Of a stretch of 58,334 nt of DNA, positions 18,991 through 58,334 are shown piece by piece. How positions within the stretch are numbered: position 1 is the stretch's first letter; each line of letters opens with the position of its first letter. The translations under genes were made by a program, and so were the position numbers. The stretch comes from Lachnospiraceae bacterium (lineage in GTDB: Bacteria; Bacillota; Clostridia; Lachnospirales; Lachnospiraceae). The notes beneath the pieces are model-generated. The model ran no database searches. It worked only from the letters and a program-made list of their open reading frames with translations, and was not told the origin of the DNA. The DNA is taken from NCBI GenBank assembly GCA_022797535.1, contig JAAWKU010000004.1:1-58334 (forward strand), given 5' to 3'.

Positions 18991-19013
18991 GGCGTTCCCC
19001 TCCTTTATCACAC

Positions 19014-28255: not shown

Positions 28256-28326
28256 ATAGGCACCTCCAATCAGATAATGTGGGGAAAGCCTGCCGCCTGG
28301 CAGCCCCCTCCTGCTTAAATGGGCAC

Positions 28327-28362
28327 AAAAAAACACCGGACACATCTCTGCATCCGGCGCCC
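28327..28362 (-). terminator. Terminator between fic and virB4
   Basis: Minus strand: CGCCGGA pairs with TCCGGTG, followed by seven T. It lies inside the transfer operon just before virB4, so it may set expression levels or be read through. Confidence 0.75.
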
Positions 28363-32736: not shown

Positions 32737-33131
32737 CACAGGCGCCCCCCGACACCCCCCATGGCCTGCACTGTCCCTGCCATGTCCTCCCCCAGATGTA
32801 GAAATTCCGCCACCGTCTCTCTGGAAATGCGGCGGACAGGGATTTTATGCCTCCACGCCGCTTTCAGTTCCTCCTGCATGCCGCCGGAGACGCGGCTGCC
32901 GCACAGCCACATCTCGCCGCACACCTCAAGGAGCTTAAGCCCCATCCTGATCCCCAGTTCCCGCTGTTCCGGCACTGTGTCATCCAGCAGCTGCGGGTAC
33001 AAAAGGTGGGCCGCCACCGGGGTGCAGCCCCGCTCCATCGCCAGTCGGCAGGCAGCTTTCGCGAACGCCACGTTTCCCTCCAAATCCCCCGCATAGGGGG
33101 ACGCAATATATACAATCTTTCCTTCTGCCAT
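32736..33131 (-). CDS. Nucleoside 2-deoxyribosyltransferase-like protein (DUF4406/DUF7768 type)
   Basis: 131 residues with the Rossmann-like pattern of deoxyribosyltransferase relatives: KIVYIASPYAGDLEGNVAFA, the helix AKAACRLAMERGCTPVAAHL, and LCGSRVSGGMQEELKAAW. Such proteins are common in phages and ICEs; the substrate is unknown, possibly a nucleotide. It is coupled to the methyltransferase by overlapping stop and start codons, which hints at DNA or nucleotide modification. GGAGG precedes the ATG. Confidence 0.8.
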   Translation of the reverse strand: MAEGKIVYIASPYAGDLEGNVAFAKAACRLAMERGCTPVAAHLLYPQLLDDTVPEQRELGIRMGLKLLEVCGEMWLCGSRVSGGMQEELKAAWRHKIPVRRISRETVAEFLHLGEDMAGTVQAMGGVGGRL

Positions 33132-41086: not shown

Positions 41087-41091
41087 GGCGC

Positions 41092-42021: not shown

Positions 42022-43658
42022 AGGGCATCCCCCTCCTTCCTTTTTCCGTTGCTGCCAGACACCGCCAGAAGCCGCGAGAGCATCTCCTGAGGCATCCCGT
42101 TCTCCATCAGGCGGCGGGCAAGCCCCTCCGATATGGGGTTCACCTGCCTATGGCTGCCATTTATTATGAACCTGCCGTTTTCCACCCGGTTCTCCGTGAT
42201 CTGGTACTGGAACAGGGGGCGGAACTTCCTTGTGCCGTCCGGCAGGATCTCACATTCCATAATCTCCATCAGCCGCCGGTCCTTGTTCTCAAGCTGCTTG
42301 CAGAATGCCACGATGGGGTATGCCTCCGTGACGAACCCCATCAGGGTGTCATCCCCCATGTCGACAGCCCTCTTGCAGAGGGACACCATGCGCCTGTAGG
42401 TGGCGTCGCAGCTCATGGAGTGGATGGTGGTGACCACGGCCACGCCGGTGCGGGCGGCTTCCTGCGCCGCATTCGCCTCCGGCCCCCGCATCTCCCCCAC
42501 CACGATGATGTCAGGGTTGAAGCGCAGCGCCATGTCAAGGAGGGCGATCTGGTCCACCCTCTGGCGCTCGTTCTCGCTGTCGCGGGTCAGGGTATGGATG
42601 ACGGAATTGACCACTTTTCCCTCCTTCCTGCGCACCAGGGCCAGCTCTCTGGAGCCGTTCTCTATGCTGTAGATGCGCTTGCCGTCAGGAATGGTGGTGA
42701 GCAGCCACCCAAGGAGGGTGGTCTTGCCGGAGCTGGTGGCTCCCGCCACGCACACGGAGATGCCGTAACGGATGCATTCCGCCAAAAAGTCCAGCATCTG
42801 CCCCGTGGCCGTCCCGCCCTTTATGAAGTCCTGCTTTTTCATGCTCTGGGGGTTGACGATACGGATGCTGGCCGCCACGCCCACGTCCTCATCCACTATG
42901 GGTGTCTTTAATACGGCAATGCGGATGTTCTTGGAGAGGTGCCCCAGGACGCTGGGGCTGGCATCGTCCAGCACCATGCCGGAAACGTGCAGCATGCGCC
43001 GCACCACGTTGATGGCATGCTCCGGGCTGTCGAAATGCTCCGTGAGCTTCTCCGTCACGCCGCCCGAAAACTGCACCTCCACGTCATCCCATGCGTTGAT
43101 GTCGATCTCCTCTATGCCCTCCCCGTAGATATATTTGGTCAGGAAACCGAATTCCGCCATCTCGCAATAGATGGCATCGATCAGCGTTTCCGTGTCCATG
43201 CCCGGCACGGATATCCTGTGGTCCAGAATATACTTTCCCGCAAAGCGCCGGATCTGCGCTCTGGCATCTTCACTGCCCTCCGCTGTGACCAGGCTGCTGT
43301 ACTCTTTGGAAAGATATGCCTGCACCTCCTTAAGCACGGAGGCAAAATCCCTGCCCTCCGCATCCGCCTCAAAGAACAGGCCGTGGGCGCGCAGCGTACT
43401 GACATCCCGTCTGGGGGCGTCATAATCTTCCCCACTTTCGGGGAATCCCTCCCCGGCAGGGACATTCCGTATCTCCTCTGCTGTAGGTTCCGCCTGTTTT
43501 CCGGCATCTCTTTGGTTCGGACGGTCTTCCCCTGCACACGGAGGAATGGCATGTGCGGTTTCCGCCTCCGGATTCCCCGCAGCCATGCTTTTTCCTGTCT
43601 GAACACTTCCGTAAAAATCCCCCTGTAATGCCGCCCGGCTCCGCTTTTCCCCTAACAT
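42018..43658 (-). CDS. TadA/CpaF-family secretion ATPase
   Basis: A VirB11/TadA type ATPase powering the Tad pilus. Walker A GATSSGKTTLL near 307-317, the Asp box and Walker B in NPDIIVVGEMRGPEANAAQ, and the His box TIHSMSCD are all intact. The N-terminal 90 residues are disordered and include VPAGEG. The length (546) is slightly long because of this tail. GGGAGG before the ATG. Confidence 0.93.
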   Translation of the reverse strand: MLGEKRSRAALQGDFYGSVQTGKSMAAGNPEAETAHAIPPCAGEDRPNQRDAGKQAEPTAEEIRNVPAGEGFPESGEDYDAPRRDVSTLRAHGLFFEADAEGRDFASVLKEVQAYLSKEYSSLVTAEGSEDARAQIRRFAGKYILDHRISVPGMDTETLIDAIYCEMAEFGFLTKYIYGEGIEEIDINAWDDVEVQFSGGVTEKLTEHFDSPEHAINVVRRMLHVSGMVLDDASPSVLGHLSKNIRIAVLKTPIVDEDVGVAASIRIVNPQSMKKQDFIKGGTATGQMLDFLAECIRYGISVCVAGATSSGKTTLLGWLLTTIPDGKRIYSIENGSRELALVRRKEGKVVNSVIHTLTRDSENERQRVDQIALLDMALRFNPDIIVVGEMRGPEANAAQEAARTGVAVVTTIHSMSCDATYRRMVSLCKRAVDMGDDTLMGFVTEAYPIVAFCKQLENKDRRLMEIMECEILPDGTRKFRPLFQYQITENRVENGRFIINGSHRQVNPISEGLARRLMENGMPQEMLSRLLAVSGSNGKRKEGDAL

Positions 43659-44464
43659 CCGAACACCTCCCTTGTAATGGCCTCCATAGATTTCCGGAAT
43701 GCCCTGCTGTCCTTCAGCCCCAATTCTTTGAACAGGTTCCCCTCCAGAACCTGTGACGCCACCTCATCGGAATGGGGTATCTGGAACGCCACGCTCCCCA
43801 GCACCTGCTCCATATGTCCGCTTGCCTCGTTAGGGTACACGTTGGCTGCCACCCTGTACTGCTTTTCCGCATCCCATTTGCTCTCCTTTAATAAGGGCAG
43901 CTGGCTGGACAGGTAGCTGATGGATTTTAAGTCGCAGTTCACCATCCGCAGCACTGCATCGGACTTGAGCAGGGCGATAGCGGAGAGGATATCGTTGGCA
44001 ATGGAGCTGCTACAGTCGATGACCACATAGGGGGCGATGTTCCTTAACGCCTGCAGCAGTTCCTCCGCCTGGGGACGCTCATAGGGCGGATAGGTGTATT
44101 CGTTCTCCCCTTTCCGCATTCCGAGGATGGCAAGGTGGCGGAATTTCTTATGGGTGATGCAGTTGTGCCGCACCAGAGATTCCGACACATGGCTCGCCGC
44201 AAGGATGCTCCCGAGAGAATGTTCTTCCTCCAGATCCCCGGGCGGGCAGATGCAGGGGAGCATGGGTGTGTTCATGTCACATAAGAGCAGCGCCACGTCC
44301 TTCTTCTGCTGTGCCAGATATGCCGCCAGCTTGACGGCCACCGTTGTCTTACCGCAGCCGGGACTACCCCACACCGCCAGCACCCGATTTCCTTTTTCAG
44401 GCTCTTTCCGATTATCCTCCCCGCCGTTGTGTCGGCTGAATATGCTGTTCTTCATGAAATTCAA
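43652..44464 (-). CDS. TadZ/CpaE-like ParA-type ATPase
   Basis: 270 residues with a P-loop WGSPGCGKTTVAVKLAAYLA (a classic Walker A rather than the deviant KGG form) and a Walker B-like VVIDCSSSIANDI. The position between CpaB and TadA marks it as the TadZ/CpaE locator that places the pilus machine. The start is TTG at 44464 or ATG at 44455; both have nearby G-rich signals. Confidence 0.8.
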   Translation of the reverse strand: MNFMKNSIFSRHNGGEDNRKEPEKGNRVLAVWGSPGCGKTTVAVKLAAYLAQQKKDVALLLCDMNTPMLPCICPPGDLEEEHSLGSILAASHVSESLVRHNCITHKKFRHLAILGMRKGENEYTYPPYERPQAEELLQALRNIAPYVVIDCSSSIANDILSAIALLKSDAVLRMVNCDLKSISYLSSQLPLLKESKWDAEKQYRVAANVYPNEASGHMEQVLGSVAFQIPHSDEVASQVLEGNLFKELGLKDSRAFRKSMEAITREVFGC

Positions 44465-44467
44465 TCC

Positions 44468-45337
44468 CTATTCCCCCCCGCTTCCCGACAGCGCTTCCTC
44501 CGCCTGCTGGATCACATCCTCCATGGACTGGCCGTTTTCGGGGCTGTCACCTCTTTCCCCTGTTTCCTGAGTGTCCTCTGCGCTTTTTTCCTCATCTTCT
44601 TCTGCAGGCGCATACAGTTCTTCCAGCACGGCATCCTGCGCCGTAATAAATTTGGCGGTGTTTTCCGCATCCCCCCGGTATACCAGCGAAAGGTGCAGCC
44701 TGCCCTCTGCCTCCAGTTCCGCCAATATTCTTGACTGTTCCGGCGCCACCAGCAGCGTCACGGTGGTGGGCAGCTCCCTTTCGGAGTCCCCATCCTCCCG
44801 CTCCCCGGTATTGGCGTCATACCCGCTGTTCGCCGTCACGGCAATGACCTCCACATACTGAAGTTCGGGCGGTATTACGGTCACCCCCTGCTTTTTGTAG
44901 TCTGGGGCGATGACGGATACGATGTCGCCGCTCTGCAGCTTTCCCGACAGCCCGTTGGCAAAGGCTTTCACCGTCACGGACATGGCCTGTTTCTCGCCGT
45001 TTAAGCTGTAAAGGTAGGCGTTCTCTGCGGCAGGCTCATCTGCGATTTTGGAGGCGATGATATAGTCTCCCGGCACAAAGTCGGCGGAGGCGTACCTGCC
45101 GATGGCCGTCTCCGGGTTCCTCACCACATCCTCCGGCAGGTTGTACCCTCCTACCTCCACCACCTTCACCTGCGCCGCCGTGATCTCATCGCCCTTTTTG
45201 ATCTCCCGAACCACCCGCACGATCTGAGTCTTTTCGCTGATGCTCTTGTTAAAAAGCGGTATAACCGCAAAGCATATGGTCAGCGACAGTATGATGCAGG
45301 CCACCCCTATGACGATCCTGTTCTTAAAAATCTGCAT
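44468..45337 (-). CDS. cpaB: CpaB/RcpC-like SAF-domain protein
   Basis: 289 residues: N-terminal membrane segment (IVIGVACIILSLTICFAVI), then SAF domain (REIKKGDEITAAQVKVVEVG, SADFVPGDYIIASKI) and an RcpC/CpaB part (LQSGDIVSVIAPDYK). The C-terminal 60 residues are acidic and disordered. It is periplasm/wall-side scaffolding of Tad pili. GGAGGG before the ATG. Confidence 0.88.
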   Translation of the reverse strand: MQIFKNRIVIGVACIILSLTICFAVIPLFNKSISEKTQIVRVVREIKKGDEITAAQVKVVEVGGYNLPEDVVRNPETAIGRYASADFVPGDYIIASKIADEPAAENAYLYSLNGEKQAMSVTVKAFANGLSGKLQSGDIVSVIAPDYKKQGVTVIPPELQYVEVIAVTANSGYDANTGEREDGDSERELPTTVTLLVAPEQSRILAELEAEGRLHLSLVYRGDAENTAKFITAQDAVLEELYAPAEEDEEKSAEDTQETGERGDSPENGQSMEDVIQQAEEALSGSGGE

Positions 45338-45361
45338 TCTTTTCCCTCCAAAAATAATTTT

Positions 45362-45727
45362 TCACATGCACAACCCCGCCATCTCCTGCGGGCATGCCGT
45401 CTGCTGCGCCTGCCCCATGAGCTCCCCAAGGCTGCACATCGGCTCATCCTCATGGAATTCTATCCCCTTCAGGCACAGGGATTCCCTGCCATGGAAAGGA
45501 AGCGGCTCCATGGAAATAATCGCCCCGACACAATTTTCTGTGACCGGCCTCTGTGAGGCATAATTGTTCTTAGCATCCATAGGCTCCCCGGAGCCGAAAA
45601 GGTCATAACAATAAAGTCCTTCGGGGACAGTGCCATGGTCAACCGGCGCACCTGTCCCCCAGACTGTCCTTCCCTCCAGCTCTGCCCGTTCATACATCCA
45701 CCCTCCGGCATCTGTACGTTTTTCCAT
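45362..45727 (-). CDS. LPD28-domain protein, copy 1
   Basis: 121 residues. It matches the protein at 49610-49981: YERAELEGRTVWGTGAPVDH, then GTVPEGLYCYDLFGSGEPMD and a late ISMEPLPF. LPD28 is a domain of large polyvalent proteins from phages and conjugative elements. The start at 45727 has GGAGG; the frame extends 57 codons upstream over the small membrane peptide gene but without signal. Confidence 0.75.
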   Translation of the reverse strand: MEKRTDAGGWMYERAELEGRTVWGTGAPVDHGTVPEGLYCYDLFGSGEPMDAKNNYASQRPVTENCVGAIISMEPLPFHGRESLCLKGIEFHEDEPMCSLGELMGQAQQTACPQEMAGLCM

Positions 45728-45780
45728 CCCGATCCCTCCAAAGTCCGGGCGGGCCTTCCATGAAAGCCCGCCCCCCTGTC

Positions 45781-45882
45781 TTACCTGCCCACTGCGTATC
45801 TTTTCCTGCGGCTGCGCAGGAACGCCGCCAGTGCCACCACCGGCACGGCGGTACAAAGTGTGATGATGATTTTCTTTTTCAT
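45781..45882 (-). CDS. 33-residue membrane peptide
   Basis: A short gene: KKKIIITLCTAVPVVALAAF then LRSRRKRYAVGR. It is a basic-flanked single membrane helix. GGAGG lies 8 bases before the ATG, and the ATG overlaps the stop codon of the prepilin peptidase gene (ATGA), so it is translationally coupled. It may be a small subunit of the Tad or peptidase complex, or a cell-wall stalk anchor. No family known to me. Confidence 0.65.
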   Translation of the reverse strand: MKKKIIITLCTAVPVVALAAFLRSRRKRYAVGR

Positions 45883-46340
45883 ATGGTCCATCCTCCAATC
45901 TTCATGAAATAGGCCATGGCTGCCCCTGCCGCCAGGAACGGCCCTGCGGGGTGGGCGGTCCTTCCCGGCCTCCCCTTAAGCCTCCTTACGCAGGAACAGA
46001 TAAGCCCGTAAACGGTAAACACTGACAGCCCCATGACGGATGCCGCCAGGCTGGCCGGCAGTCCCAGCATAATTCCCATGGATGCCGCCAGCTTGATGTC
46101 CCCGCCCCCGATCCCTCTTGGCTCTTTCCCCACCAGTGCCACTAAGAGGTACGGCAGCGCCGTAAATGCCCCGGCAAGGTTCCATGGGGAAAAATGCAGC
46201 AGGGACAGCAGTGCGATGGCCGTCTGCAGGCTGTCCGGGATCTCCCTGCTCTTGATGTCGCAGACGGAAACCGCGGCCAAAAGAAAAAGGAACAGCACAG
46301 CCTGCAGCACCACCCCTGGTGATGCAGGGTTAACCGGCAT
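45879..46340 (-). CDS. TadV/CpaA-type A24 prepilin peptidase
   Basis: 153 residues with four membrane segments. The two catalytic aspartates are in VCDIKSREIPD and GGGDIKLAASMG, as in prepilin peptidases of the Flp/Tad type. It should process the Flp-like prepilin encoded just upstream and the pseudopilins. The start overlaps the prepilin gene by 11 bases and has a weak ribosome binding site, suggesting coupling. Confidence 0.9.
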   Translation of the reverse strand: MPVNPASPGVVLQAVLFLFLLAAVSVCDIKSREIPDSLQTAIALLSLLHFSPWNLAGAFTALPYLLVALVGKEPRGIGGGDIKLAASMGIMLGLPASLAASVMGLSVFTVYGLICSCVRRLKGRPGRTAHPAGPFLAAGAAMAYFMKIGGWTI

Positions 46341-46623: not shown

Positions 46624-46968
46624 TTACATCCCTGCCATCTGCTGGCTTTCCTGGGGTGTTTCCCCTCCTGCTGCTTCCTGTACGGCAGGAGGGGCCTGCG
46701 CCATGGCGAGCACCTGCTGGTAGGCATCCAGCACGGCATTGTGGAGTTCATTGCGAAACTCCGCTGTCACAGGGAAGCACACCTCCCTGTAGCCATCCGT
46801 TGTCTTGCGGCTGGGCATGGACACGAACAGGCCGTCCCTACCGCCCTCCACCACCTTGATTCCCCGCACGGCAAAGCAGCCGTCTATGGTCGCAGAGGCA
46901 TAGGCGCGGATGCCGCCCTGCTGTCCGGGCGGGTACATGGAACTGATCTTGACATCCAGTGTAGGCAT
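46624..46968 (-). CDS. SpoVG-family protein
   Basis: 114 residues. The core LDVKISSMYPPGQQGGIRAY with ATIDGCFAVRGIKVVEGG and VSMPSRKTTDGYREVCFPVT is the SpoVG fold, a DNA/RNA-binding regulator. ICE-borne copies have extra Q/P-rich tails, as here. AAGGAGG before the ATG. It opens the region of establishment-type genes. Confidence 0.92.
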   Translation of the reverse strand: MPTLDVKISSMYPPGQQGGIRAYASATIDGCFAVRGIKVVEGGRDGLFVSMPSRKTTDGYREVCFPVTAEFRNELHNAVLDAYQQVLAMAQAPPAVQEAAGGETPQESQQMAGM

Positions 46969-47058: not shown

Positions 47059-47622
47059 TCAGAGCTGCATTGTCTGGCCCTGGGCCTGCTGTGGGGCGGT
47101 GAACCCTATTTCCTGGAAACCGATGCGGTCCACATAGTAGAAGCTGCTCCCCGTGCCGTCATAAAGCTCCAGCACATCGCTCATGGAGAGGGAGTGCCCC
47201 TTATAGCTGGCCGGGAGGGCGCTGCCGTCATTCCCGAACTTCCTGTACAGCGCCTCCAGGTCGTTGGTCTGTGCCGCCCCGTCATATACGGCCCTGTAGT
47301 TCTCCTTGTCCGGCGGGCCGAACTTCCTGCACATTTCCTCGTACCCGATGAATTTCATATACACGTCCACATCGGGTTTCAACTGCCAGACACGGATATT
47401 TTTAAGTCCCTGCGCCGTACCGGCCTCCTGTCCCACGGCCATGAGGCGGTCGAACATCCCGTCCATCCACTGGACTTTCTGGACCTGCCGCTGCCTCTCC
47501 AGGAACCTGCAGAGCTCATCCCCCCTGAACATGGGGTCCACCACGGCACATCCGTCCTCCACTCTGCCTGCCCGGCTCCCGTAATACATGATGATCCCGT
47601 TTTCAATCCGGATCTGGTTCAC
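47059..47622 (-). CDS. YodL-domain protein
   Basis: 187 residues. The YodL part is VWQLKPDVDVYMKFIGYEEM. The following HSLSMSDVLELYDG and SSFYYVDRIGFQEI form the associated small beta domain of polyvalent proteins. Usual in phages and ICEs; function unknown, perhaps host takeover. The start is GTG at 47622 with AAGGGGG. Confidence 0.8.
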   Translation of the reverse strand: MNQIRIENGIIMYYGSRAGRVEDGCAVVDPMFRGDELCRFLERQRQVQKVQWMDGMFDRLMAVGQEAGTAQGLKNIRVWQLKPDVDVYMKFIGYEEMCRKFGPPDKENYRAVYDGAAQTNDLEALYRKFGNDGSALPASYKGHSLSMSDVLELYDGTGSSFYYVDRIGFQEIGFTAPQQAQGQTMQL

Positions 47623-47662: not shown

Positions 47663-48223
47663 TTACGTCATGGTCATCCCTCCGCCCTGCCCCTGCCGGA
47701 ATTCAGTAAGGGCCTGTTCATCGGGATATATGAGCTTTCCGTCCATGACCTCCAGCACCGCGAAATCATCCCTGTCGCAGATCAGCACCCGGTGCTGGTA
47801 GGGTTTTTGCATCTCCACATAGTCAAGGGCCTCCTGGGGGCTGTACAGCCACACCCCTGCGCTGTAGCGGCCGTCCGGCAGGAAGCTGTAGCCGGAGTAT
47901 TCCGGCTCGTTCCCTGCAAGATCCTTTGCCCCTACCGGGCGGACCTGGGAGAGCATCAGCTTCGCCTCGTCTGGCAAAAGCTCCGGCTTCAGCGTCCCCG
48001 TCACATCCTCCCGCCAGAACCGGCAGCTTTCCCCGTTTGAAAGGGATACCAGGAATACGCTCCGCCCCATGGGGTTCGGGTTCGCCCCGTTCCCTCCGGT
48101 GCAGAGGAAAAGCTGGCCCGGATGCTCCGGGGGCAGCGCTGCCCTGTTCAACACCACCACCTTCCCTTTCAGGGAGATGCCGTACCCGGTCTGGCCGCAG
48201 TCGCCTTTCGTGTATTCACGCAT
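47663..48223 (-). CDS. Hypothetical ICE protein
   Basis: 186 residues, no recognised family. It begins with a beta-rich part (GKVVVLNRAALPPEHPGQLF, GRSVFLVSLSNGESCRFWRE), a helix LLPDEAKLMLSQVRPVGAKD and a C-terminal strand region (HRVLICDRDDFAVLEVMDGK). GGAGG before the ATG; overlaps the AbrB-like gene by 8 bases. Confidence 0.65.
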   Translation of the reverse strand: MREYTKGDCGQTGYGISLKGKVVVLNRAALPPEHPGQLFLCTGGNGANPNPMGRSVFLVSLSNGESCRFWREDVTGTLKPELLPDEAKLMLSQVRPVGAKDLAGNEPEYSGYSFLPDGRYSAGVWLYSPQEALDYVEMQKPYQHRVLICDRDDFAVLEVMDGKLIYPDEQALTEFRQGQGGGMTMT

Positions 48224-48662: not shown

Positions 48663-49613
48663 TCACAGCCCGAACAGGCTCATCTGCCTAGGCTGCGCCC
48701 GTTCCCGTTCCTTGGGGTCATAGTTGGTGATCAGCACCTCCGGGAATTCACAGCCGCCGTCATAACGCTGTGCCAGGTTGTTGATGCGGGTGACTGCCGT
48801 GATGGTGTACCCTGCGTACAGGTCCCGTATAAAGCCGCAGTCATTGTAGCTGACCATCCATTTCCCCCTGCACCCCGCCAGCACGTCCCGCAGCCTTGCG
48901 TGGTCCTCTTTCCGGAACACCACCGCATAGTGCCCCTCCGTCTCATAATAGGGCGGGTCGCAGTAGAAAAAGGCGCCGTCCCGGTCGTACTGCTGGATCA
49001 GCGCCTCGAAGTCCTTGTTCTCCACCACCGTGTCCGCAAGCCTGCGGGATGCCTGCCAGATGGTGTCAAAGCATTTGCGCACGTCAAAGTTCTTGCAGCC
49101 GTAGGACGTGCAGCCGCTCCCGTAGCTGTACCGGATCAGCTTGAAGAACGCGGCCGCCCGCTTCACGTCCGTCACCTCCGCGTTCTCCATCAGGATCGCC
49201 CGTATTTCCTCAAAATCAGGCGCCGGCAAGGAAATCTGCGCCAGTTCCAGTTCTTCCGCCAGGAACGGGACGTCAAACTCCTGCTTGTCGAGGAACCTGC
49301 GGATGACGGTAAACTCGTCCCTGCTGTTCACCGGCAGGAAACCAAGTTCCCTTAAGAATGCCCATGTCCTGTCCTTCACGCAGCCGAACAGGTTGGCGAG
49401 GTTGGAGTTGTAGTCGTTATAGACCTCCATGCACCTGCCACTGGGCGGCCTGCCGAAGAGCACCCACCCGCCCCCGCCGAACACCTCGATATAGCGGTCA
49501 AAGTTTACGGGGAACATCGTATAAATCAGCTTCCGAAGGGCTTTCTTCCCGCCCACCCATGAGATAAAGCTGTCTATGCCGCACCACCTCCTTTCCTGCG
49601 GCGGCAGTTTCAC
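48663..49613 (-). CDS. DNA adenine methyltransferase (Dam/D12 class)
   Basis: The SAM-binding motif is FISWVGGKKALRKLI near the N-terminus and the catalytic DPPYYETEGHY appears around residue 207 (DPPY). Methylates adenine in double-stranded DNA, probably as protection. The start is odd: the best ribosome binding site (AAGGAGG) points to an ATA codon at 49577 (protein beginning IDSFISW, where homologues begin MxSFISW). The nearest ordinary start is GTG at 49613, overlapping the preceding stop but with a weak signal. Coordinates use GTG. Confidence 0.9.
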   Translation of the reverse strand: MKLPPQERRWCGIDSFISWVGGKKALRKLIYTMFPVNFDRYIEVFGGGGWVLFGRPPSGRCMEVYNDYNSNLANLFGCVKDRTWAFLRELGFLPVNSRDEFTVIRRFLDKQEFDVPFLAEELELAQISLPAPDFEEIRAILMENAEVTDVKRAAAFFKLIRYSYGSGCTSYGCKNFDVRKCFDTIWQASRRLADTVVENKDFEALIQQYDRDGAFFYCDPPYYETEGHYAVVFRKEDHARLRDVLAGCRGKWMVSYNDCGFIRDLYAGYTITAVTRINNLAQRYDGGCEFPEVLITNYDPKERERAQPRQMSLFGL

Positions 49614-49981
49614 TGTCCCATTGAAATGCCCTGGCCGGATGTTTCTTCTCCCTGCATGATGGCAAGCTGTTCCCTGTCTGCCTGCCGGAACTCCACAGCC
49701 CCCATGCTTTCCCCTAAAAAACCCCAGTCATCCGGATAGTAGCTGCCGCCCTCATCAAGCGGGAACGGCTCCCTGCACAGGATGGTTCCCCAATGGTTTA
49801 CCAGCACAAAGGGCGCTATCTGTGCAAAGCTGCCATCCAGATTGTCCGAATCCCTCACGTCATAACAGAAAAGCCCTTCCGGTACCGTGTCCCTGTCAAG
49901 GCGGGCGTTGGTAAACAGCACTACCCTACCGTCTACCTCCGCCACTTCATAACTTTCTTTTACTGCGTCATAGAGCGCCAT
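49610..49981 (-). CDS. LPD28-domain protein, copy 2
   Basis: 123 residues: ALYDAVKESYEVAEVDGRVV, then DTVPEGLFCYDVRDSDNLDG and ILCREPFPLDEG. Paralogue of 45362-45727. The gene overlaps the end of the ArdA-like gene upstream by 22 bases and the adenine methylase start by 4, so the three are translated together. GGGGAGGG before the ATG. The same start sequence (ALYEAVKE) survives as a remnant at 55612-55647. Confidence 0.8.
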   Translation of the reverse strand: MALYDAVKESYEVAEVDGRVVLFTNARLDRDTVPEGLFCYDVRDSDNLDGSFAQIAPFVLVNHWGTILCREPFPLDEGGSYYPDDWGFLGESMGAVEFRQADREQLAIMQGEETSGQGISMGQ

Positions 49982-51225
49982 ATTCCCTCCCCGCTCACTG
50001 CATTGCCATTCTCCAGTTTCCCCCGCTGTTCCTGCCCCGTATATTCATGCACAAACTCCTGCCTGTTCCGGGAGATGGTGCCATAGGAGGTAAACACAAA
50101 ACCTGCCTGTTCTATCTGCCGCTCCCCATACCCCCGGAAGTCAAAACGGGAAAAGGCAGGGTCGCCCGTGTCGATTCCGGCGCTCTGCAGGACATACTCC
50201 CCGTATGCGTCTGGTGAGAGGATATCCGAGCCGAAATCATAACAGCCCAGGTTGGCGGCAAAATCCAGCGCCATATCCATGTCAAAACACTGCTCCAGTT
50301 TCAGCACGGCCTTATACTTCATGAGCATCAGGTCATCCGGTGCCTCCCGCCGCAGTTCCTGCAGGCGCCCTGCCAGGGTGTTCAGCTTCCCGATATCCTC
50401 GTCCCCTACCATCTGGTACTGGAATGCCGGGATGATGCTCTTGGTCTCTGCGATTCGGCAGGCATCAAAGGATTCCTCACCAATGGACAGGAGCGCCCAC
50501 TGGAGGGCTTTTTCATCCGCAGGCAGTTCCAGCCATATGCCGCTGTCCCCGTCCGGCGCATCGGCCTTTTCGATCCGCAGGGACAAAAGCCCGCTGTGGC
50601 TGTCCCCACAGGAGGGCAGGTGCTCCCCGTCATAAAATTCCCGGCGGGCGGCGGTACTGCTGCGGTACACATAGCCCCTGGGGGTGAATGCCCCGTGGTC
50701 ACTGTTCCGCAGTGCCTTCCCTACCTTTGCGGAGTCCAGCAGCTCCACCGCCCCATCCGACAGACTCTCAACTATGTCAAGCATGCCGCCTTCCATGCAC
50801 GCCCTCCCAAGGCTTGTGTCATTTGTCACACCGGGATGGTATTCATAATCATCCAGACCGGCGGAAAGATTGATCAGTTCCTTCAGGGTGATGGTTTCCT
50901 TCCCTGTTTCCTCCATGTGTAGCTTTACGGCTCCTTCAAAGGTCCCGACCTGCATCTCATCTATACGGCTTACGGCATATGCCAGCAGGTTTAGTTCCTC
51001 CAGGGCATTTTCTCCTGAAATGGGGTTGTCAAACAAGGCGCTCCACAGGAAGTCCGGCCAGTCGCCGGTATCTTCCAGCATATACCCGCCTCCCTCCGGC
51101 ACATGGGCACGCTGGAGGGCATCCCTGACCTCATAGGGAGTGGCCGGCAGTTCCAACACCGCCCCCTGGTAGCCCCGCAGGTTCTCATGGCCGTCTGCAT
51201 AGATATTGACCCGCATCCGCATCAT
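49960..51225 (-). CDS. Large ArdA-like antirestriction protein, block A second gene
   Basis: 421 residues containing two ArdA-like domains in tandem. Domain 1 (about 1-190): VNIYADGHENLRGYQGAVLE, LNLLAYAVSRIDEMQVGTFE, LKELINLSAGLDDYEYHPGV, SDHGAFTPRGYVYR. Domain 2 (about 215-395): LELPADEKALQWALLSIG, DFRGYGERQIEQAGFVFTSY. ArdA proteins mimic DNA and block type I restriction enzymes; the net negative charge fits. The ATG at 51225 overlaps the stop of the upstream gene (ATGA). The family assignment is from patterns and should be checked by structure prediction. Confidence 0.8.
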   Translation of the reverse strand: MMRMRVNIYADGHENLRGYQGAVLELPATPYEVRDALQRAHVPEGGGYMLEDTGDWPDFLWSALFDNPISGENALEELNLLAYAVSRIDEMQVGTFEGAVKLHMEETGKETITLKELINLSAGLDDYEYHPGVTNDTSLGRACMEGGMLDIVESLSDGAVELLDSAKVGKALRNSDHGAFTPRGYVYRSSTAARREFYDGEHLPSCGDSHSGLLSLRIEKADAPDGDSGIWLELPADEKALQWALLSIGEESFDACRIAETKSIIPAFQYQMVGDEDIGKLNTLAGRLQELRREAPDDLMLMKYKAVLKLEQCFDMDMALDFAANLGCYDFGSDILSPDAYGEYVLQSAGIDTGDPAFSRFDFRGYGERQIEQAGFVFTSYGTISRNRQEFVHEYTGQEQRGKLENGNAVSGEGIWRSMTQ

Positions 51226-52859
51226 CCGTTCCCTCCCATCCTCATCCCCTGTCCCTGGGTCTGCCACTGTTTCAGATCCTGTTCCGTCTTGATAAAGAAA
51301 TCATCCCCGGAATGCCAGAAACTGACGCAGAGTTCTCCTTCTTCTGTCTTGATCTCCCGCTGCTCAAAGCCTTCCCCCCAGCCATCGGATTCCTGACCGT
51401 GCCATTCCTCCGTCAGACCTGCCAGTTCCTGGGGCGACAGGGGGCCGTGGCTTTTTACCTCCAGCACGCCCCACAGCTTCCCGTTCCACAGCTCTACCGT
51501 AGGGTTCATGCTGAACACCTTCCGTTTCAGCAGACGGTTGTGCAGGTAGACAGCAAGCCCTCTTTCCCCTTCTTCCTTCAGGTGTTCCTGCCCGATTTTC
51601 TCCAATATTTGGTTCTCATACTGGCACAGTTCCCCGGATTCCATTTCCATGGACTGATCCGAGATGCCGCCCCAATCCTCGTCATAAGGGTACAGCAGGC
51701 CGCTCAAGGGGCTGAACAGCTTCAGTTCCTCCAGTTCTTCCGTAAGCTGTGCGATTGGGCGATCCCTGCGCAGCACCATCCCATACCCTGTCTGCACAAC
51801 GCCCTCTTTCCTCATCTGGCCTTCCCCAAGTTTCCCATAATCCAGGTACGGCTGTACATCCTCATGGATGTGGATCTGTGCATTTTCCAGATAATAATGC
51901 CCATAATCCACGGCGGTCCGGATATCTTCCGGCAGTACCGTATACTGCTCCAGCTCTGCAATCACCCTCATGGCTTCTGCCATATCCTTTGGTACCTCTG
52001 CCTCCAGGGCTGCAAACAGCTTTCCCCTTTCCTTCTCATCTCTCAGGATGCCTTTTTCCGCCAGCATCCCTGAAAGCCCGTTCATTTCCCTGATGTCCCC
52101 GGAAAACGGCAGGAAATCCTCCAGCTCCCGAACAGGGCAGGTGATGCCTAATACTTTGCACTCATCCAGCCCATCTACCCCCAGGTTCTTCACCGCCAGC
52201 GCGAGCCTTTCCTCAGAAGCCGGGAGGGATACCGGGTAGGAGTGGTAATGTCCCGCCGCGTAAAAAGGGGAATGCAGCGATGCCTGGATGACGCACGATC
52301 TGTCATATCCAGGTGTCGGAAGGTATTTCCCGTCATAGACCTGTTCCAGCGGCTCCCCCGTCCGGATTACATAGCTGTAACCCGTAAAGCGCCCCACATT
52401 GTTTCTGGTATATTCCCTCCCTGCCGCACCGTAGTCAATAAAAGGCGCAAGCCGCTTCGGCACTTCCTCCTTCCCCAGCAGGTGCCTCCCCAATGCCTCA
52501 TGGCCTGTGACGCCATCGAAGAGCCTGAACTTGTCCATGTTGCAGGACAGGTTCACGATCTCCGCCATGGAATTCGGACTCTCGATATCCAGCGCCGCCT
52601 GGAATACAGCCTTTTCCCTTTCTGTCATCCCTTCCATATGCCGGTCCAAAAACTCCAGTTCCCGTATGCCCTGTCCCGGCTGGAGCGGCATCCCCTTCAG
52701 ATGTGCCTTTAAGCCCTCCAGCGTCCCGGTGACATCCTCGATTATAACTGTGCCCTCGTCACCGTTCTTCATGGCGGCCCGCCTTTCCTGCTTCCCCAGG
52801 GGGAATGCCAGCCATTGGCCGTCCGGTGCGGCGCTGCCGCTCAAATATACCCTTGTCAT
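51222..52859 (-). CDS. Large ArdA-like antirestriction protein, block A first gene
   Basis: 545 residues. The N-terminal ~85 residues are a leader domain. ArdA-like domain 1 has EREKAVFQAALDIESPNSMA, EIVNLSCNMDKFRLFDGVTG and DYGAAGREYTRNNVGRFTGY. Domain 2 has SLPASEERLALAVKNLGVDG and DYGKLGEGQMRKEGVVQTGY. The last ~160 residues (LKLFSPLSGLLY, NPTVELWNGKLWGVLEVKSH, EWHGQESDGWGEGFEQ, FFIKTEQDLKQ) form a separate domain that also exists alone at 53742-54191. AAAGGAG before the ATG; overlaps the DUF6075 gene by 4 bases. Confidence 0.8.
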   Translation of the reverse strand: MTRVYLSGSAAPDGQWLAFPLGKQERRAAMKNGDEGTVIIEDVTGTLEGLKAHLKGMPLQPGQGIRELEFLDRHMEGMTEREKAVFQAALDIESPNSMAEIVNLSCNMDKFRLFDGVTGHEALGRHLLGKEEVPKRLAPFIDYGAAGREYTRNNVGRFTGYSYVIRTGEPLEQVYDGKYLPTPGYDRSCVIQASLHSPFYAAGHYHSYPVSLPASEERLALAVKNLGVDGLDECKVLGITCPVRELEDFLPFSGDIREMNGLSGMLAEKGILRDEKERGKLFAALEAEVPKDMAEAMRVIAELEQYTVLPEDIRTAVDYGHYYLENAQIHIHEDVQPYLDYGKLGEGQMRKEGVVQTGYGMVLRRDRPIAQLTEELEELKLFSPLSGLLYPYDEDWGGISDQSMEMESGELCQYENQILEKIGQEHLKEEGERGLAVYLHNRLLKRKVFSMNPTVELWNGKLWGVLEVKSHGPLSPQELAGLTEEWHGQESDGWGEGFEQREIKTEEGELCVSFWHSGDDFFIKTEQDLKQWQTQGQGMRMGGNG

Positions 52860-53539
52860 CCTCTGCTCCTTTCTTCCTCCAATACCTCTGCCCCATACCG
52901 CCGGACCAGGAACGCCGTGACGACTGTCCGAAATGTCCCATCGCTGATCAGTTCCGGGTCGGTAAGCTCCGACAGGCTCAGACGGTTGGTCCCCTTGTAC
53001 AGGTCCTTTGCGCAGTGGAACACCACATAGCCGTCCAGCCCGATGCCCCGGATGCTGACGGCGGAAAAGTCAATCAGATCCGAATGCACCGCGCCCTCCG
53101 CCATCCCCCACAGCGCATGGTCTGCCGTCAGCAGGTAGAGGGCGGCGCACATGGCCTCCCTGTCAGGGACATCCGCCTGCGCCTTCCACTGGCGCCGGAA
53201 CCGCTCTTTGTGTCCCCCGTCCCGGAACGCGCTCCCGGTGCTGCCCTCCAGGCGCGACACGCGGTCTGTAAACGGGCCGAACCCCACCTCCCCGGTAAAC
53301 CGTCCCAGGAGGCTTGCGAAGTCCCCGCATCCGCCTCCAACGCTTCCACAGGGGCTGCCCCCGCCGGGCGGCTCGCAGTCCCCCCGCCCCTCTGTCTGCC
53401 CGCCGCAGCATCCATGCGCCTTTGTCATTTCCAGCCTGCTCACGGACATCCCGGCTTTCCTGGGCTTAAATCCCGGAACCTGCTGCATCTGCGCCTCCAT
53501 CCCTGCAAGCGGCATGCCGTTCATAAATTTAGATGCCAT
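52856..53539 (-). CDS. DUF6075-like protein with Gly/Cys-rich N-terminus
   Basis: 227 residues. The N-terminal 90 residues are Gly/Pro/Cys-rich (GCCGGQTEGRGDCEPPGGG) and look disordered or metal-binding. The C-terminal ~110 residues match DUF6075: AALYLLTADHALWGMAEGAV, DLIDFSAVSIRGIGLDGYVV, LSELTDPELISDGTFRTVVT. Function unknown; usual in clostridial ICEs near ArdA genes. AAGGGAG before the ATG at 53539. Confidence 0.75.
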   Translation of the reverse strand: MASKFMNGMPLAGMEAQMQQVPGFKPRKAGMSVSRLEMTKAHGCCGGQTEGRGDCEPPGGGSPCGSVGGGCGDFASLLGRFTGEVGFGPFTDRVSRLEGSTGSAFRDGGHKERFRRQWKAQADVPDREAMCAALYLLTADHALWGMAEGAVHSDLIDFSAVSIRGIGLDGYVVFHCAKDLYKGTNRLSLSELTDPELISDGTFRTVVTAFLVRRYGAEVLEEERSRG

Positions 53540-53741
53540 ATCTCCCTTTCCTTTCTGTCTTTCCAGCCTGTCTGCCGCAGATGCAGAAACGGCCAGTCTC
53601 CCGGAATATCCGAAAACCCGGTCGCCTTCCGCAGCAGTGCTGTAATGCGGTGATCCCCTCCCCGCAGTTTTACCCCATGCCCATGGCCTGTGTACCGCCT
53701 GTTGCCCGCTGCACACCTGCCTCGCCAAGTATCTCCTACCC

Positions 53742-54191
53742 CTACGTGATGCCCTTCAATTCCTGCTCCGTCTTGATGCTGGAACGCCTTGTATCCATGT
53801 AGTCCACATACAGGCTGCACCCCTCGTCACTATCCACGGCTTCCTGGGAGAACGACTCTCCCCACCCGTCCGTCATCTGTCCATGCCATTCGTCCTTTAA
53901 TGTTTCCAGTTCCCCGTCCGAAACCACGCCATGGCATTTTACTGTCAGCACGCTCCATATGCCGTGCGACCATACCTCCACGCCCGGATGCATGCTTATG
54001 ATGCGCTCCCTTAAGGACAGGGGCTGTAAATATTCCGCAAGCCCCCTTTCACTCTGCCGTATTTCGTCTTTATCCAAGGCATTCTGTATCTCACGCTTAT
54101 ACCCGGATAAAACAATCCTGTTCAGCGCCCTGCTATAATCCTCCGAATCATAAAAACGCCCGCTCAAAGGACTGTATAGCTTGATTTCCAC
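53742..54191 (-). CDS. Stand-alone copy of the C-terminal domain of the ArdA-like proteins
   Basis: 149 residues aligned end to end with the last third of 51222-52859 and 56875-58334: KLYSPLSGRFY, ERIISMHPGVEVWSHGIWSV, KDEWHGQMTDGWGESFSQE and SSIKTEQELK. It shows that this domain is an independent module. No motif suggests an enzyme. It lies between DUF6075 and the PP-loop gene. Confidence 0.72.
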   Translation of the reverse strand: MEIKLYSPLSGRFYDSEDYSRALNRIVLSGYKREIQNALDKDEIRQSERGLAEYLQPLSLRERIISMHPGVEVWSHGIWSVLTVKCHGVVSDGELETLKDEWHGQMTDGWGESFSQEAVDSDEGCSLYVDYMDTRRSSIKTEQELKGIT

Positions 54192-54277
54192 AATGTCTTT
54201 TTCCGCGCTTTCCTTTTCCTGCCTCCGATCTGTCCGCAGATTTTATAGTCTGCAGCCGCCTGCCCCCCTGATTCTCC

Positions 54278-55162
54278 CTATTCATTCTCCTGCATCCAGC
54301 CGTCAAAATCTTCCAGGCTCATCTGTCCCTCTATCTGCCCATCCTCCATCCACCAGGAGAACACATCCCCCGCCGTTTTCCACTTTGTGGGTATCCCCGC
54401 CGCGTGGATCACGTCTAGCATCCTCCCGAATGCCTGGGTATATGCCTGCCTGTATGTGGGGAACAGGCCGAATTCCATCCACCTGCGTTTCCCCGCCATC
54501 GGGCAGCCTATGCAGCCCACACGGTGGAATCCCATGTCATAGAGCGGGTTCATGGGGAGCCTTTCGCTGCGGATATACTCCCATACGTCCCTGTCCGTCC
54601 AGTCCACGATGGGGTTGCAAATCCTCTTTCCCTTCAGTTCGCAGCATTCGAACATCTGCCTATTCTCGTCATTGTCGTTGTTCAGGATAATCTTTTTATC
54701 CCGGTTATAGGTGAAATTCTCATACACCCCCCGGCTTTTCCTGCGTCTGGCGCTCTCCGCCCAGCGGACGCCGGTGGTGATAAAACGGTCCCTGCAGTAA
54801 GATTCCTTCAGCACCTGGCAGCAGTATCTCTGCAGCCTTGTGGGCGGGAATTTCTTTATGGGGATCAGCGTCCACATCGTCACTCGCTGTCCCTTGTAGG
54901 CCGGATAATTCACCCTGCATGTGACTCCCTGTTCCTCCAGTTTCCGGAAAGTCTCCCGCACATAGTAGATGGTAGGGGGCGCGTCCGCCGTGGTGAGGTT
55001 GTGCTGTACCTCATAAGGGATGCCCGCCCTCCTTACGATCTCCCGGCAAACGGCGCTGTCCTTGCCCCCGCTGTCCGTCACCATCAGGGGGCTTTCATAC
55101 AGGCGCAGCGACATCTCCGATGCCATTTTTACCCTTTCGATTGCTTTCTGTTCTAAATCCAT
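54278..55162 (-). CDS. PP-loop/PAPS-reductase-family protein
   Basis: 294 residues. The PP-loop SGGKDSAVCREIVRRAG sits near 31-47. RYCCQVLKE and GCIGCPMAGKRR provide four cysteines in the pattern of an iron-sulfur type reductase, and NPIVDWTDRDVWEYI is the family's C-terminal signature. The family uses ATP and reducing power for sulfur chemistry (PAPS reduction, tRNA or DNA thiolation). Here it stands alone among anti-restriction genes, so a DNA or RNA modification role is plausible but unproved. Start ATG at 55162 has a poor signal; ATG at 55126 with AAAGGGT is an alternative. Confidence 0.88.
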   Translation of the reverse strand: MDLEQKAIERVKMASEMSLRLYESPLMVTDSGGKDSAVCREIVRRAGIPYEVQHNLTTADAPPTIYYVRETFRKLEEQGVTCRVNYPAYKGQRVTMWTLIPIKKFPPTRLQRYCCQVLKESYCRDRFITTGVRWAESARRRKSRGVYENFTYNRDKKIILNNDNDENRQMFECCELKGKRICNPIVDWTDRDVWEYIRSERLPMNPLYDMGFHRVGCIGCPMAGKRRWMEFGLFPTYRQAYTQAFGRMLDVIHAAGIPTKWKTAGDVFSWWMEDGQIEGQMSLEDFDGWMQENE

Positions 55163-55263
55163 CCAAAAGGGAGTCAGATATCTTTTCCCTGGCCAGGACT
55201 CCGCCTCCTTCCTTCTGGTTTATTCCCGCAGGCAATGGGTCAAGCAGCGTGCCTGCACAGGCT

Positions 55264-55301
55264 GGGCAGAAAAAAAGCACCGGAAACATGCCGGTGCCCC
55301 T
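55264..55301 (-). terminator. Terminator upstream of the PP-loop gene
   Basis: GCACCGG pairs perfectly with CCGGTGC around a CATGTTT loop, followed by seven T on the minus strand. It ends transcripts from block B before the PP-loop gene. Confidence 0.87.
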
Positions 55302-55330
55302 CAATGCCCGTATTCATTTTTATACCCATC

Positions 55331-55510
55331 TGCGCGCTGCGGCGCGCACTTAAATCAATAGTTGAATACGCATTTTTATTCAACCTTATACCTCATGTGC
55401 GCTTCAGCGCACACTTAAATCAATAGTTGAATATGCATTTTATTCAACCTTCCAGACATGCCGCCTGCGGCGGCACAAAATGAGAAGAATTGCTTCTTTT
55501 GCAATTCTTC
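55331..55510. repeat. Tandem compound hairpin repeat array
   Basis: Two 65-bp units (55331- and 55396-) each contain a GC-rich hairpin (TGCGCGCTGCGGCGCGCA, TGTGCGCTTCAGCGCACA) followed by AAATCAATA and an AT hairpin GTTGAATA...TATTCAAC. A third GC hairpin TGCCGCCTGCGGCGGCA (55459-55475) keeps the spacing, and GAAGAATTGC...GCAATTCTTC (55484-55510) ends the array. Stems are kept by paired changes between units (GCGCGC/GTGCGC/GCCGCC), so structure seems selected. Confidence 0.8.
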
Positions 55511-55647
55511 CTCCGTACTGATAAACAGCCCGCTCCCCCTCTCCATATTCCCAAAGTCTACATACACTTCCCTCGCTCCCCGGCGGACAGGCATACAGCG
55601 GGGCATTAAACTTAAAACATTTCCTTAACTGCCTCATAGAGTGCCAT
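55500..55647 (-). pseudogene. Hybrid remnant: LPD28 start joined to ArdA-cluster tail
   Basis: The ATG at 55647 begins ALYEAVKE as in the LPD28 gene at 49981, with a good GGGGAAGGA, but stops after 11 residues. Just beyond, another frame reads REVYVDFGNMERGSGLFIST then EEELQK, the end of the C-terminal domain found in 53742-54191. It therefore joins the start of one gene and the end of another from a duplicated block, with the middle deleted. Confidence 0.7.
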
Positions 55648-56878
55648 ATGCCATTCCTTCCCCACACGCTGCACTTCTGTGTCCCTGCCCCATATACTCT
55701 TGCGCAATCTCCTGCCCGCTGCGGGAAATGGCTCCATAGGGGGTATATACATAACCGGCCTTGAATAGCTGCCTCTTTCCATATTCCTTGAAATTAAAAT
55801 GGGAAAAGGCTGGATCCTGCGTATCAATTCCGGCGCTCTTCAGAACAGATTCCCCATACGCATCCAAAGCGACCACATCAGGATTAAAATTATAACGGTC
55901 CAGATGTACGGCAATATCCAGCATCCTGTCCAATTCAGGATATTGCTCCAGTTCCAGTGCTGCTTTATATTTCATGAGCACCAGCCTGCTTTGCGGATCC
56001 TGCTGTATCTCTTTCAAATATTCAGCCAGCATGTTCAATTTCCTGATATCCTCTTTCCTGCCAAATCTGCGCCGGAATGCAGGGATGATACTGTTTACAT
56101 CCACAATCCTGCAGGCTGCAAGAGATTCCGCCCCTATGGATAGTAAAGCACCCTGAATAGTTTCTTCACCTGCTGGCAGTTCCAGCCATACCCTGCTGTT
56201 TCTGTCTGGTGCATCGGCTTTTTCTATCCACAAGGACAAAAGGCCGCTGTGGCTTTCCCCGCAAGCCGGCAGACGTTCACCATCATAGAGTTCACGGCCG
56301 GTATTTGCATTGCGGTATACATATCCATGGGCAGTGAACACTCCATGGTCGCTGTGCCGCAGCATTCTGCCGACTTTTCCGGGATCAAGCAGACTTGCAA
56401 CGTTATCAGGCAGGTTCACCAGAAACTCCAGCAGGCTTCCTTGAATACAGGCATGTCCCAGACTTATGTCATTTACCACACCTGGATAAAATGCATAATC
56501 ATCCAGACCACAGGCAAGATTTATCAGTTCTTTCAACTTGGCGGAGCCACCCCCCTTTTCCTCCAGTAAAAGTTGTACCGCGCCTTCATAAACCGTAAGT
56601 TGTAGTTCATCCATCTGCCCTACGATATCCGCCAGCAGGTTCATTTCCCCCAGAACATTTACGCCGGCAGGATTGCCTGTTTCCCATATGGCATACCAAA
56701 GAAAAGACGGCCATTCACCGATACCCTCCAGTTCATACCCGCCGCCCTCGGGCACATGGGCGCGCTGGAGAGCATCTTCAATCTCATATGGGGTAGCTGG
56801 CAGTTCCAGCACTGCCCCCTCGTATTCCCGGTTCCCGCTATAGCCGTCCGCTATGACATTAACCTTCCTGCGTTTCAT
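55634..56878 (-). CDS. Large ArdA-like antirestriction protein, block B second gene
   Basis: 414 residues, a close paralogue of 49960-51225 over the full length: RAHVPEGGGYELEGIGEWPS, LNLLADIVGQMDELQLTVYE, INLACGLDDYAFYPGVVNDI, SDHGVFTAHGYVYR, and the second domain with NFKEYGKRQLFKAGYVYTPY. Block B has a lower GC content than block A, which suggests separate acquisition or long divergence rather than a very recent copy. The ATG overlaps the upstream stop (ATGA). Confidence 0.8.
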   Translation of the reverse strand: MKRRKVNVIADGYSGNREYEGAVLELPATPYEIEDALQRAHVPEGGGYELEGIGEWPSFLWYAIWETGNPAGVNVLGEMNLLADIVGQMDELQLTVYEGAVQLLLEEKGGGSAKLKELINLACGLDDYAFYPGVVNDISLGHACIQGSLLEFLVNLPDNVASLLDPGKVGRMLRHSDHGVFTAHGYVYRNANTGRELYDGERLPACGESHSGLLSLWIEKADAPDRNSRVWLELPAGEETIQGALLSIGAESLAACRIVDVNSIIPAFRRRFGRKEDIRKLNMLAEYLKEIQQDPQSRLVLMKYKAALELEQYPELDRMLDIAVHLDRYNFNPDVVALDAYGESVLKSAGIDTQDPAFSHFNFKEYGKRQLFKAGYVYTPYGAISRSGQEIAQEYMGQGHRSAACGEGMAYGTL

Positions 56879-58334
56879 ATGCTCCCTCCCATCTGCATCC
56901 CAGCCCTCTGTGACTGCTCCTGTTTTAATTCCTGTTCCGTCTTTATGGAAAAGTCATCGCTGGAATTCCAGAAACTGACGCTAATATGCCCCTCTTCTGT
57001 TTCGATCTGTTGCTCAAATTCTTCCCCCCAGTTACAGCTTAGCTGTTCCTCCCAGATACGCTCCAGTCTGGACAATTCCTGCGGCGGCAAAGTGCCATAG
57101 GTTTTCACTTCCAGCACACACCAAAGTTCTCCGTTCCATAATTCCACTGTCGGTATCATGCTGAATATCTTCCGCTCTAATAAACGGTTTTCCAGATAAT
57201 ATACATATCCCCTATCTCCCTCTTTCTCAAGGCAGTTCTGGCGCACTCTCTTCTGGATTTCATCCTTAAACCGGCACAGTTCTCTGGGGCTTATTTCTTC
57301 AGCCTGATCCGAAACATCTCCCCCGCTGTCAAGGCGCAGAATTCCTTTCAACGGACTGAACAGCTTAAAGCCTGTCAGTTCCTCCGGAAGCTGGCGGATA
57401 GGCCTGTCCACACGCAGAATTAATCCATATTTTGTTTCTGCCACACTGTCCATTCTCATCTGCCTTTTTCCGAAAGCATCATAGTCAAAGAACGGCTTAA
57501 GACTGTCCACAATGCTTATCTTTTCTTTTTCCAGATAGTAATCTGCATAATCGGCTGCAGTCCTAATCTGCCAAGGCAGAAATTCGTAATATTCCAGCTT
57601 TTCGGCTATCTCCTTGGCCTGTGCCATATTTTCCGGCAGCTCCGCCTCCATCGCTGCAAACAGTTTATTCCGTAATCCGGCATCTTTCATAATTCCTTTC
57701 TCTGCCAATACCCAGGCAAACTCATTTATTTCCCGGACATTATCGGAAAGCGGCAGCAATGGTCTCAGTTCCTGGACAGGGCAGTTGATGTTTATGATCT
57801 TATGCGAGTCCAGCGTCTTTCCGCCCAGATTCTTCTCCGCCAGTGCAAGCCTTTCTTCAGAGGCTGGGAGGGAGATGGGGTAAGTAAAGTATTTTGCGGC
57901 ATTATAACAGGAATATAAGTTAACCAGAATAATACATGAACTGTCGTATACATGATCAGGCATTTTTTTTCCATCATAAATCCTCTGAAATGGCTTTCTC
58001 GCTAAAACTGCATACCCATATTCCGTAAAGCGTCCCCTGTGGCTCTCTGCGTACTTCTCCCCGACCGTCCTGTCATCCGGACACGGCAGCGTCCCTCTTG
58101 CAACATCCCCGCTTTCCAGCAGACGCTTTCCAAGTTCCTTATAGTCCGTTGCACCTTCGTAGAGCATAACATTATCCAGATTGCAGGACAGATTTATAAT
58201 ATCTATTATGCTGTGCGGTTTCACAATATCCAGAGCTGCCTGGAATACAGCTTTTTCCTTTTCTGTCATCCCCGCCGTCTGCTGGTCTAAAAACATCATT
58301 TCATCTATTCCCCTGTACGTCTGGAATATCTTTC
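56875..58334 (-). CDS. Large ArdA-like antirestriction protein, block B first gene (5' end outside window)
   Basis: The frame stays open to the right edge (…KIFQTYRGIDE before the ATG codons at 58299), matching an internal point about 65 residues into 51222-52859. The true start is therefore beyond the window. Parts as in its paralogue: EKEKAVFQAALDIVKPHSII, ESHRGRFTEYGYAVL, second domain SLPASEERLALAEKNLGGKT and DYDAFGKRQMRMDSVAETKY, and the C-terminal module NPTVELWN-like (IPTVELWNGELWCVLEVKTY, FSIKTEQELKQ). Confidence 0.78.
   Translation of the reverse strand, partial: KIFQTYRGIDEMMFLDQQTAGMTEKEKAVFQAALDIVKPHSIIDIINLSCNLDNVMLYEGATDYKELGKRLLESGDVARGTLPCPDDRTVGEKYAESHRGRFTEYGYAVLARKPFQRIYDGKKMPDHVYDSSCIILVNLYSCYNAAKYFTYPISLPASEERLALAEKNLGGKTLDSHKIININCPVQELRPLLPLSDNVREINEFAWVLAEKGIMKDAGLRNKLFAAMEAELPENMAQAKEIAEKLEYYEFLPWQIRTAADYADYYLEKEKISIVDSLKPFFDYDAFGKRQMRMDSVAETKYGLILRVDRPIRQLPEELTGFKLFSPLKGILRLDSGGDVSDQAEEISPRELCRFKDEIQKRVRQNCLEKEGDRGYVYYLENRLLERKIFSMIPTVELWNGELWCVLEVKTYGTLPPQELSRLERIWEEQLSCNWGEEFEQQIETEEGHISVSFWNSSDDFSIKTEQELKQEQSQRAGMQMGGSI

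Follow-up and report, generated by a model that had tools for sequence, protein, structure and literature searches.

Results

Gene content of the window

The window analysed here is the whole of contig C151 (58,334 bases), which comes from a 3.5-Mb draft genome with uncultured Lachnospiraceae as its nearest named relatives. Its far right holds four large genes in two blocks, all on the minus strand (Table 1): A1 and its paralogue B1 encode ArdA-ArdA-X proteins, and A2 and its paralogue B2 encode ArdA-ArdA proteins. The 5′ end of B1 lies beyond the contig edge, leaving visible a partial N-module, the C-module, and X. Four-nucleotide ATGA overlaps link A1 to A2, which starts with the ATG at 51225, and B1 to B2. 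The stop of G8 overlaps the start of A1, and the LPD28 gene overlaps the end of A2. When we re-read the sequence, the reading-frame coordinates, start/stop overlaps, and gene order given for both blocks by a first-pass annotation were all correct. The LPD28 remnant that it had noticed at the end of B2, which it overlaps, is also real: it reads MALYEAVKEMF-stop and matches the start of the intact gene (MALYDAVKES). An independent metagenome-assembled contig, L010, carries the end of B1, B2, the PAPS-reductase-like gene, the stand-alone X, G8, and A1 in the same order at >98% identity, and the array is thus not an assembly artefact.

By its gene content, the window covers the greater part of an integrative conjugative element (ICE). 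A MobL relaxase, a VirD4-type coupling protein, a VirB4-like ATPase, TrbL, and a serine recombinase are present. The relaxase is of unusual architecture, its C-terminal end bearing about ten Sel1 repeats, and the pilus-like genes include a secretion ATPase, T2SSF, RcpC/CpaB, and a likely prepilin peptidase. In the related element L009, chromosomal-type genes are found past ~7.1 kb and a flavodoxin gene there seems interrupted, which would put this end of the element some 2 to 3 kb from the ArdA operon.

Table 1. Features of the window, in order of position.
Feature	Position	Strand	Match or remark
Serine recombinase	2079-3737		ICE gene
PemK/MazF-like toxin	4413-5612	-	upstream pemK RNA motif at 5520-5612
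VirD4-type coupling protein	12635-14449		ICE gene
MobL relaxase	16024-19011	-	ICE gene
ToxN toxin	19822-20376	-	type III toxin-antitoxin system
VirB4/TraG-like ATPase	26408-28345		ICE gene
C5-type methyltransferase	30835-32739		
TrbL	33141-34100		ICE gene
Tad/Flp-type pilus-like genes	40214-46340	-	inside the conjugative element
Second LPD28-like stretch	45494-45712	-	42% identical to the LPD28 protein
SpoVG-like protein	46624-46968	-	PF04026, E 6.7e-26
YodL-domain protein	47059-47622	-	PF14191, E 2.4e-32
X7, conserved protein	47663-48223	-	downstream of methyltransferase in related elements
D12/Dam-type N6-adenine DNA methyltransferase	48663-49613	-	PF02086, E 9e-23; end of A operon
LPD28 domain protein, 123 aa, acidic	49610-49981	-	PF18843, E 1.2e-27
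A2, ArdA-ArdA, 421 aa	49960-51225	-	PF07275 twice, E 1.1e-8; N-module aa 1-204, C-module aa 209-398
A1, ArdA-ArdA-X, 545 aa	51222-52859	-	PF07275 twice, E 3.7e-14; own HMM; N-module aa 1-181, C-module aa 187-372, X aa 373-545
G8, conserved protein	52856-53539	-	recurs upstream of double-ArdA genes in relatives
Stand-alone X, 149 aa	53742-54191	-	39% identity to A1 aa 378-530, E 4e-30
PAPS-reductase-like protein	54278-55162	-	PF01507
Duplicated 65-bp unit	55331-55441	-	between block B and the PAPS gene
LPD28 remnant, 11 codons	55612-55647	-	direct reading
B2, A2 paralogue, ArdA-ArdA, 414 aa	55634-56878	-	PF07275 twice, E 1.1e-9
B1, A1 paralogue, 485 aa visible	56875-58334	-	PF07275, E 4.2e-6; own HMM

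The large proteins carry paired ArdA modules

PF07275 exceeds its Pfam cut-off in all four large proteins (27.9–54.1 bits versus 27). A1, A2, and B2 each have two matching stretches; B1 has one, and its truncated first module aligns with that of A1. Two ArdA modules per large protein, as first proposed, are therefore well founded. The accompanying count of about eight ArdA domains holds as eight modules, seven of them complete, since B1-N is cut by the contig end. The single extra module then described is actually three copies of X (the last module of A1, that of B1, and one standing alone). Searches of NCBIfam and PHROGs gave no useful match for A1, A2, B1, B2, X, or G8, with one marginal antirestriction PHROG match to B1 (E 0.02).

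Profiles of the A1 and A2 families were compared with the PDB, and the sole group of entries matched was Tn916 ArdA (2w82) with its EcoR124I complexes (7bto/7btr). Structure prediction led to the same fold. The AlphaFold2 model of A1 (pLDDT 86.7, pTM 0.79) aligned with 2w82 at Z 8.7 (150 residues, 3.8 Å) over aa 1-168, and that of A2 (pLDDT 80.2, pTM 0.69) at Z 11.0 (158 residues, 4.2 Å) over aa 211-388. The best unrelated folds reached Z 4.8 and 3.0, respectively, so that the ArdA likeness on which the first-pass annotation was built stands far above other folds. These alignments covered one module per model; the other module is assigned by homology and by its identical order of elements, both halves of A1, and likewise of A2, repeating one order of strands and helices. 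Two modules per chain were found here, and not the ordinary single-module homodimer form of 166–177 aa.

X is an acidic module of ~170 aa. Seventeen aligned examples have a common motif around SDGWGEGFEQ, and X has no Pfam or PDB profile match. Its likeness in structure to other alpha/beta folds is weak (Z <5) and not interpretable. The similarity of the stand-alone X to A1 runs on upstream to 54239 (tblastn), and this copy is probably the relic of another A1-type gene. An X-like stretch after the LPD28 remnant scored only 3.3 bits and is not claimed. G8 likewise has no Pfam or PDB match; its assignment as a TIR-domain protein was rejected, as the match was at chance level and occurred in only 1 of 11 members.

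Modules differ in charge

The modules are not equivalent in charge as calculated from sequence, which serves here as a proxy for surface charge. A2-N (-19), A2-C (-16), and B2-N (-18) are acidic and A1-C (-11) is intermediate, with A1-N (-5), B1-C (-3), B2-C (-2), and the partial B1-N (-2) near neutral. Most of the acidity of A1 and B1 is held by X (-19 of -34 and -12 of -19, respectively). For comparison, Tn916 ArdA has a net charge of -30 over the 158 residues compared, and typical ArdA proteins range from -22 to -29 (PMC3906837). Sample medians were -22 for single ArdAs, -28 for the ArdAs of long proteins, and -12 to -15 for tandem modules. Per residue, the medians of tandem modules and single ArdAs were -0.082 and -0.140 (Mann-Whitney p 3e-11, a value uncorrected for kinship). 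The uniformly acidic DNA-mimic surfaces expected at the outset are thus unsupported as stated; with several modules near neutral, "eight DNA mimics" overstates the case, and by this proxy charge is the one feature at odds with simple DNA mimicry. The position equivalent to the Tn916 interface residue Leu134 is, in a low-confidence alignment, mostly hydrophobic in C-modules and often Glu or Asp in N-modules, a possible hint that chains could join through their C-modules only.

An old double-ArdA family in Bacillota

Relatives were sought in Lachnospiraceae, Clostridia, and the whole phylum, and the loci obtained were then scanned with module profiles. ArdA-ArdA or ArdA-ArdA-X proteins were found in 19 of 391 Clostridia genomes (about 5% of those sampled), and the phylum-wide search detected them in other Bacillota classes as well. 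On these sequences, double ArdA is not confined to this locus and represents an old family spread over Bacillota. IMG/VR scans returned no close relatives of A1 or A2, and a plasmid collection yielded nothing for A2 and, for A1, single-module matches that were all weak.

In a maximum-likelihood tree built from 123 modules, a branch with support 98/91 sets off nearly all C-modules of double proteins, and nearly all N-modules fall into a separate group (95/81). The former lie apart from all other modules, and the latter from most single ArdAs and from long polyvalent-type ArdA domains. Such separate clades suggest that the fusion probably arose once, and one ancient fusion is the simplest reading of the tree.

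The multi-copy state, proposed from the window and supported there, also recurs in unrelated elements. Three double-ArdA genes are found in each of L123, L136/L137, L138/L139, and L140 (genomes G1037, G1013, and G1060, and one G703 contig), and four in L080 (MT835617.1). L080 is labelled 'Bacteriophage sp.', and records with double ArdA under that label derive from a faecal contig set. Its double-ArdA genes stand with Dam, YodL, and SpoVG in ICE order; judged by this content, it is probably a misassigned piece of an ICE and not a phage.

Duplication, selection, and allele exchange

Pairwise alignment confirmed the proposed duplication of the two blocks, with identities far beyond chance of 51% for A1/B1 (E 1e-176) and 57% for A2/B2 (E 5e-167). 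Estimates of dN/dS for A1 and A2 against their orthologues (0.21–0.37) indicate that both genes are under purifying selection. The corresponding value between blocks A and B was ~0.25, with dS saturated. In the tree, the A2-C and A1-C modules place the A/B divergence before block A split among the window, L009, and L011; the order is less clear for N-modules.

Nucleotide identity between the window and L009 is mostly 91–99% and drops to 63% over ~51180-50883, which encodes the first ~115 residues of A2; identity between L011 and the window there is 85%. By its identity profile, the start of A2 looks like an allele replacement between the window and L009 that spans approximately N-module domains 1 and 2. 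In Tn916 ArdA, these two domains hold the antirestriction activity (PMC3906837).

A Dam-type methyltransferase recurs beside double ArdA

The array had been described as lying next to two DNA methyltransferases. One of these, the Dam/D12-type gene, does adjoin it; the C5-type gene is ~17 kb away. In a first set of ~25 relative loci with double ArdA, a Dam-type gene lies within a few genes downstream in 14, and many of the loci without it stop at contig edges. Dam is also found downstream in the further elements of the second, phylum-wide set, one of them cut by the stretch end. Many elements have the order [PAPS-like]-G8-AAX-AA-[LPD28]-Dam-X7-YodL-SpoVG, or large parts of it, where AAX and AA denote ArdA-ArdA-X and ArdA-ArdA. 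The PAPS-reductase-like gene also stands beside double-ArdA genes in L072 and L073. Its product has weak similarity to BrxP and DndC profiles.

Discussion

We propose, with a probability of roughly 0.6, that the region is an antirestriction module of the ICE that would act in the recipient after conjugation, a reading favoured by the analogy with ArdA and by the methyltransferase linkage. The core operon would consist of G8, A1, A2, LPD28, and the Dam methyltransferase, with B1-B2 as a second, diverged version of A1-A2. Upon entry into the recipient, double-ArdA proteins would bind type I restriction enzymes as mimics of B-DNA, fill their DNA-binding clefts, and so block cleavage, and the co-encoded methyltransferase would modify the element DNA to give lasting protection. 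Fusion of the modules could provide a covalent pair in place of the weak ArdA dimer, and several diverged copies could widen the range of enzymes bound. We infer the antirestriction activity, its targets and timing, and the roles of X and G8 in this scheme. Type I restriction subunits (HSDR_N) occur in 17 of 41 related genomes. In conjugative leading regions, antirestriction genes are enriched together with orphan methyltransferases (PMC11541004).

A competing proposal, to which we give somewhat less than even odds, is that A2, the B2 N-module, and perhaps X mimic DNA, and that the near-neutral A1-N, B1, and B2-C serve as scaffold, dimerisation, target-adaptor, or other-protein-binding domains. 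The split in charge between modules, the concentration of A1 and B1 acidity in X, and the Leu134-equivalent pattern from the low-confidence alignment speak for such a division of labour; however, sequence charge differs from surface charge, and other members of the tandem family keep -12 to -15 per module. A further model, which we regard as unlikely, makes double ArdA an antirestriction architecture in its own right, with self-pairing gone from the N-module and retained in the C-module. Chains joined through their C-modules would then form a four-module rod that mimics about twice the DNA length of an ArdA dimer or bridges two sites of one translocating restriction complex, X would act as an acidic cap or engage a second target, and the diverged copies would have different target ranges.

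A rival reading, which seems quite improbable, treats block B as decaying residue of duplication that has no function of its own, and the stand-alone X and the LPD28 remnant likewise. The LPD28 remnant and the X fragment with its upstream relic fit such decay, as does the lack of block B in the related elements L009 and L011 (the latter ends shortly upstream), but B1 and B2 remain open over ~1450 and ~1240 bases, the A/B divergence is mostly synonymous (although dS is saturated), and multi-copy double-ArdA arrays recur in unrelated elements. We consider it very improbable that the proteins are mainly regulators that mimic DNA for host nucleoid or repressor proteins. ArdA proteins do change transcription in E. 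coli (PMC13300388 and the H-NS work cited therein), yet the recurrent neighbour of double ArdA is a DNA methyltransferase, which points to restriction.

Known forms of ArdA in the literature are single, embedded in polyvalent proteins, provided with extensions, or half-size (sArdA). ArdA of Tn916 (ORF18) has the same module fold and profile and is also carried on a Bacillota conjugative element, but it is one module of ~166 aa that forms a non-covalent dimer; here two modules are covalently joined, carry lower charge, and occur in several copies. The polyvalent-protein ArdA of Firmicutes conjugative elements (PMC5512222) likewise lies inside a larger protein, and such elements also carry LPD28 and YodL domains. 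ArdA proteins with long extensions (PMC3906837) are similarly larger; the long ArdA proteins found here have one ArdA module each, however, and double-ArdA proteins form their own clades. The half-size sArdA (PMC12548430) is also a size variant, but one of truncation as opposed to doubling. Plasmid leading-region antidefence islands (PMC11541004) likewise combine an antirestriction gene with an orphan methyltransferase; those islands are on plasmids, whereas the Bacillota ICEs described here are likened to them by gene content. In the open-access papers searched, no description of tandem or double ArdA domain proteins was found, and double ArdA is apparently an undescribed branch of the ArdA family in Bacillota mobile elements.

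The finding defines a widespread, apparently unnamed ArdA branch in Bacillota conjugative elements, together with two conserved partners, X and G8, for which the libraries searched contain no family. If the proteins are active, they would explain the passage of these elements through diverse type I restriction barriers and would provide structural studies of restriction-enzyme inhibition with a naturally occurring single-chain ArdA pair; X and G8 would then be candidate new antidefence proteins.

A 65-bp repeat beside block B

Each copy of the duplicated 65-bp unit contains one 8-bp and one 7-bp inverted repeat. One stem pair changes from C-G to T-A between the copies, with the stem kept, and DNA folding z-scores are -3.0 and -3.5. 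The unit was found only in the window and in L010. Its 19-base core has matches elsewhere in IMG/VR and 299 genomes, all without the surrounding hairpins, and we therefore take the repeat to be element-specific; it is a possible promoter or regulatory region.
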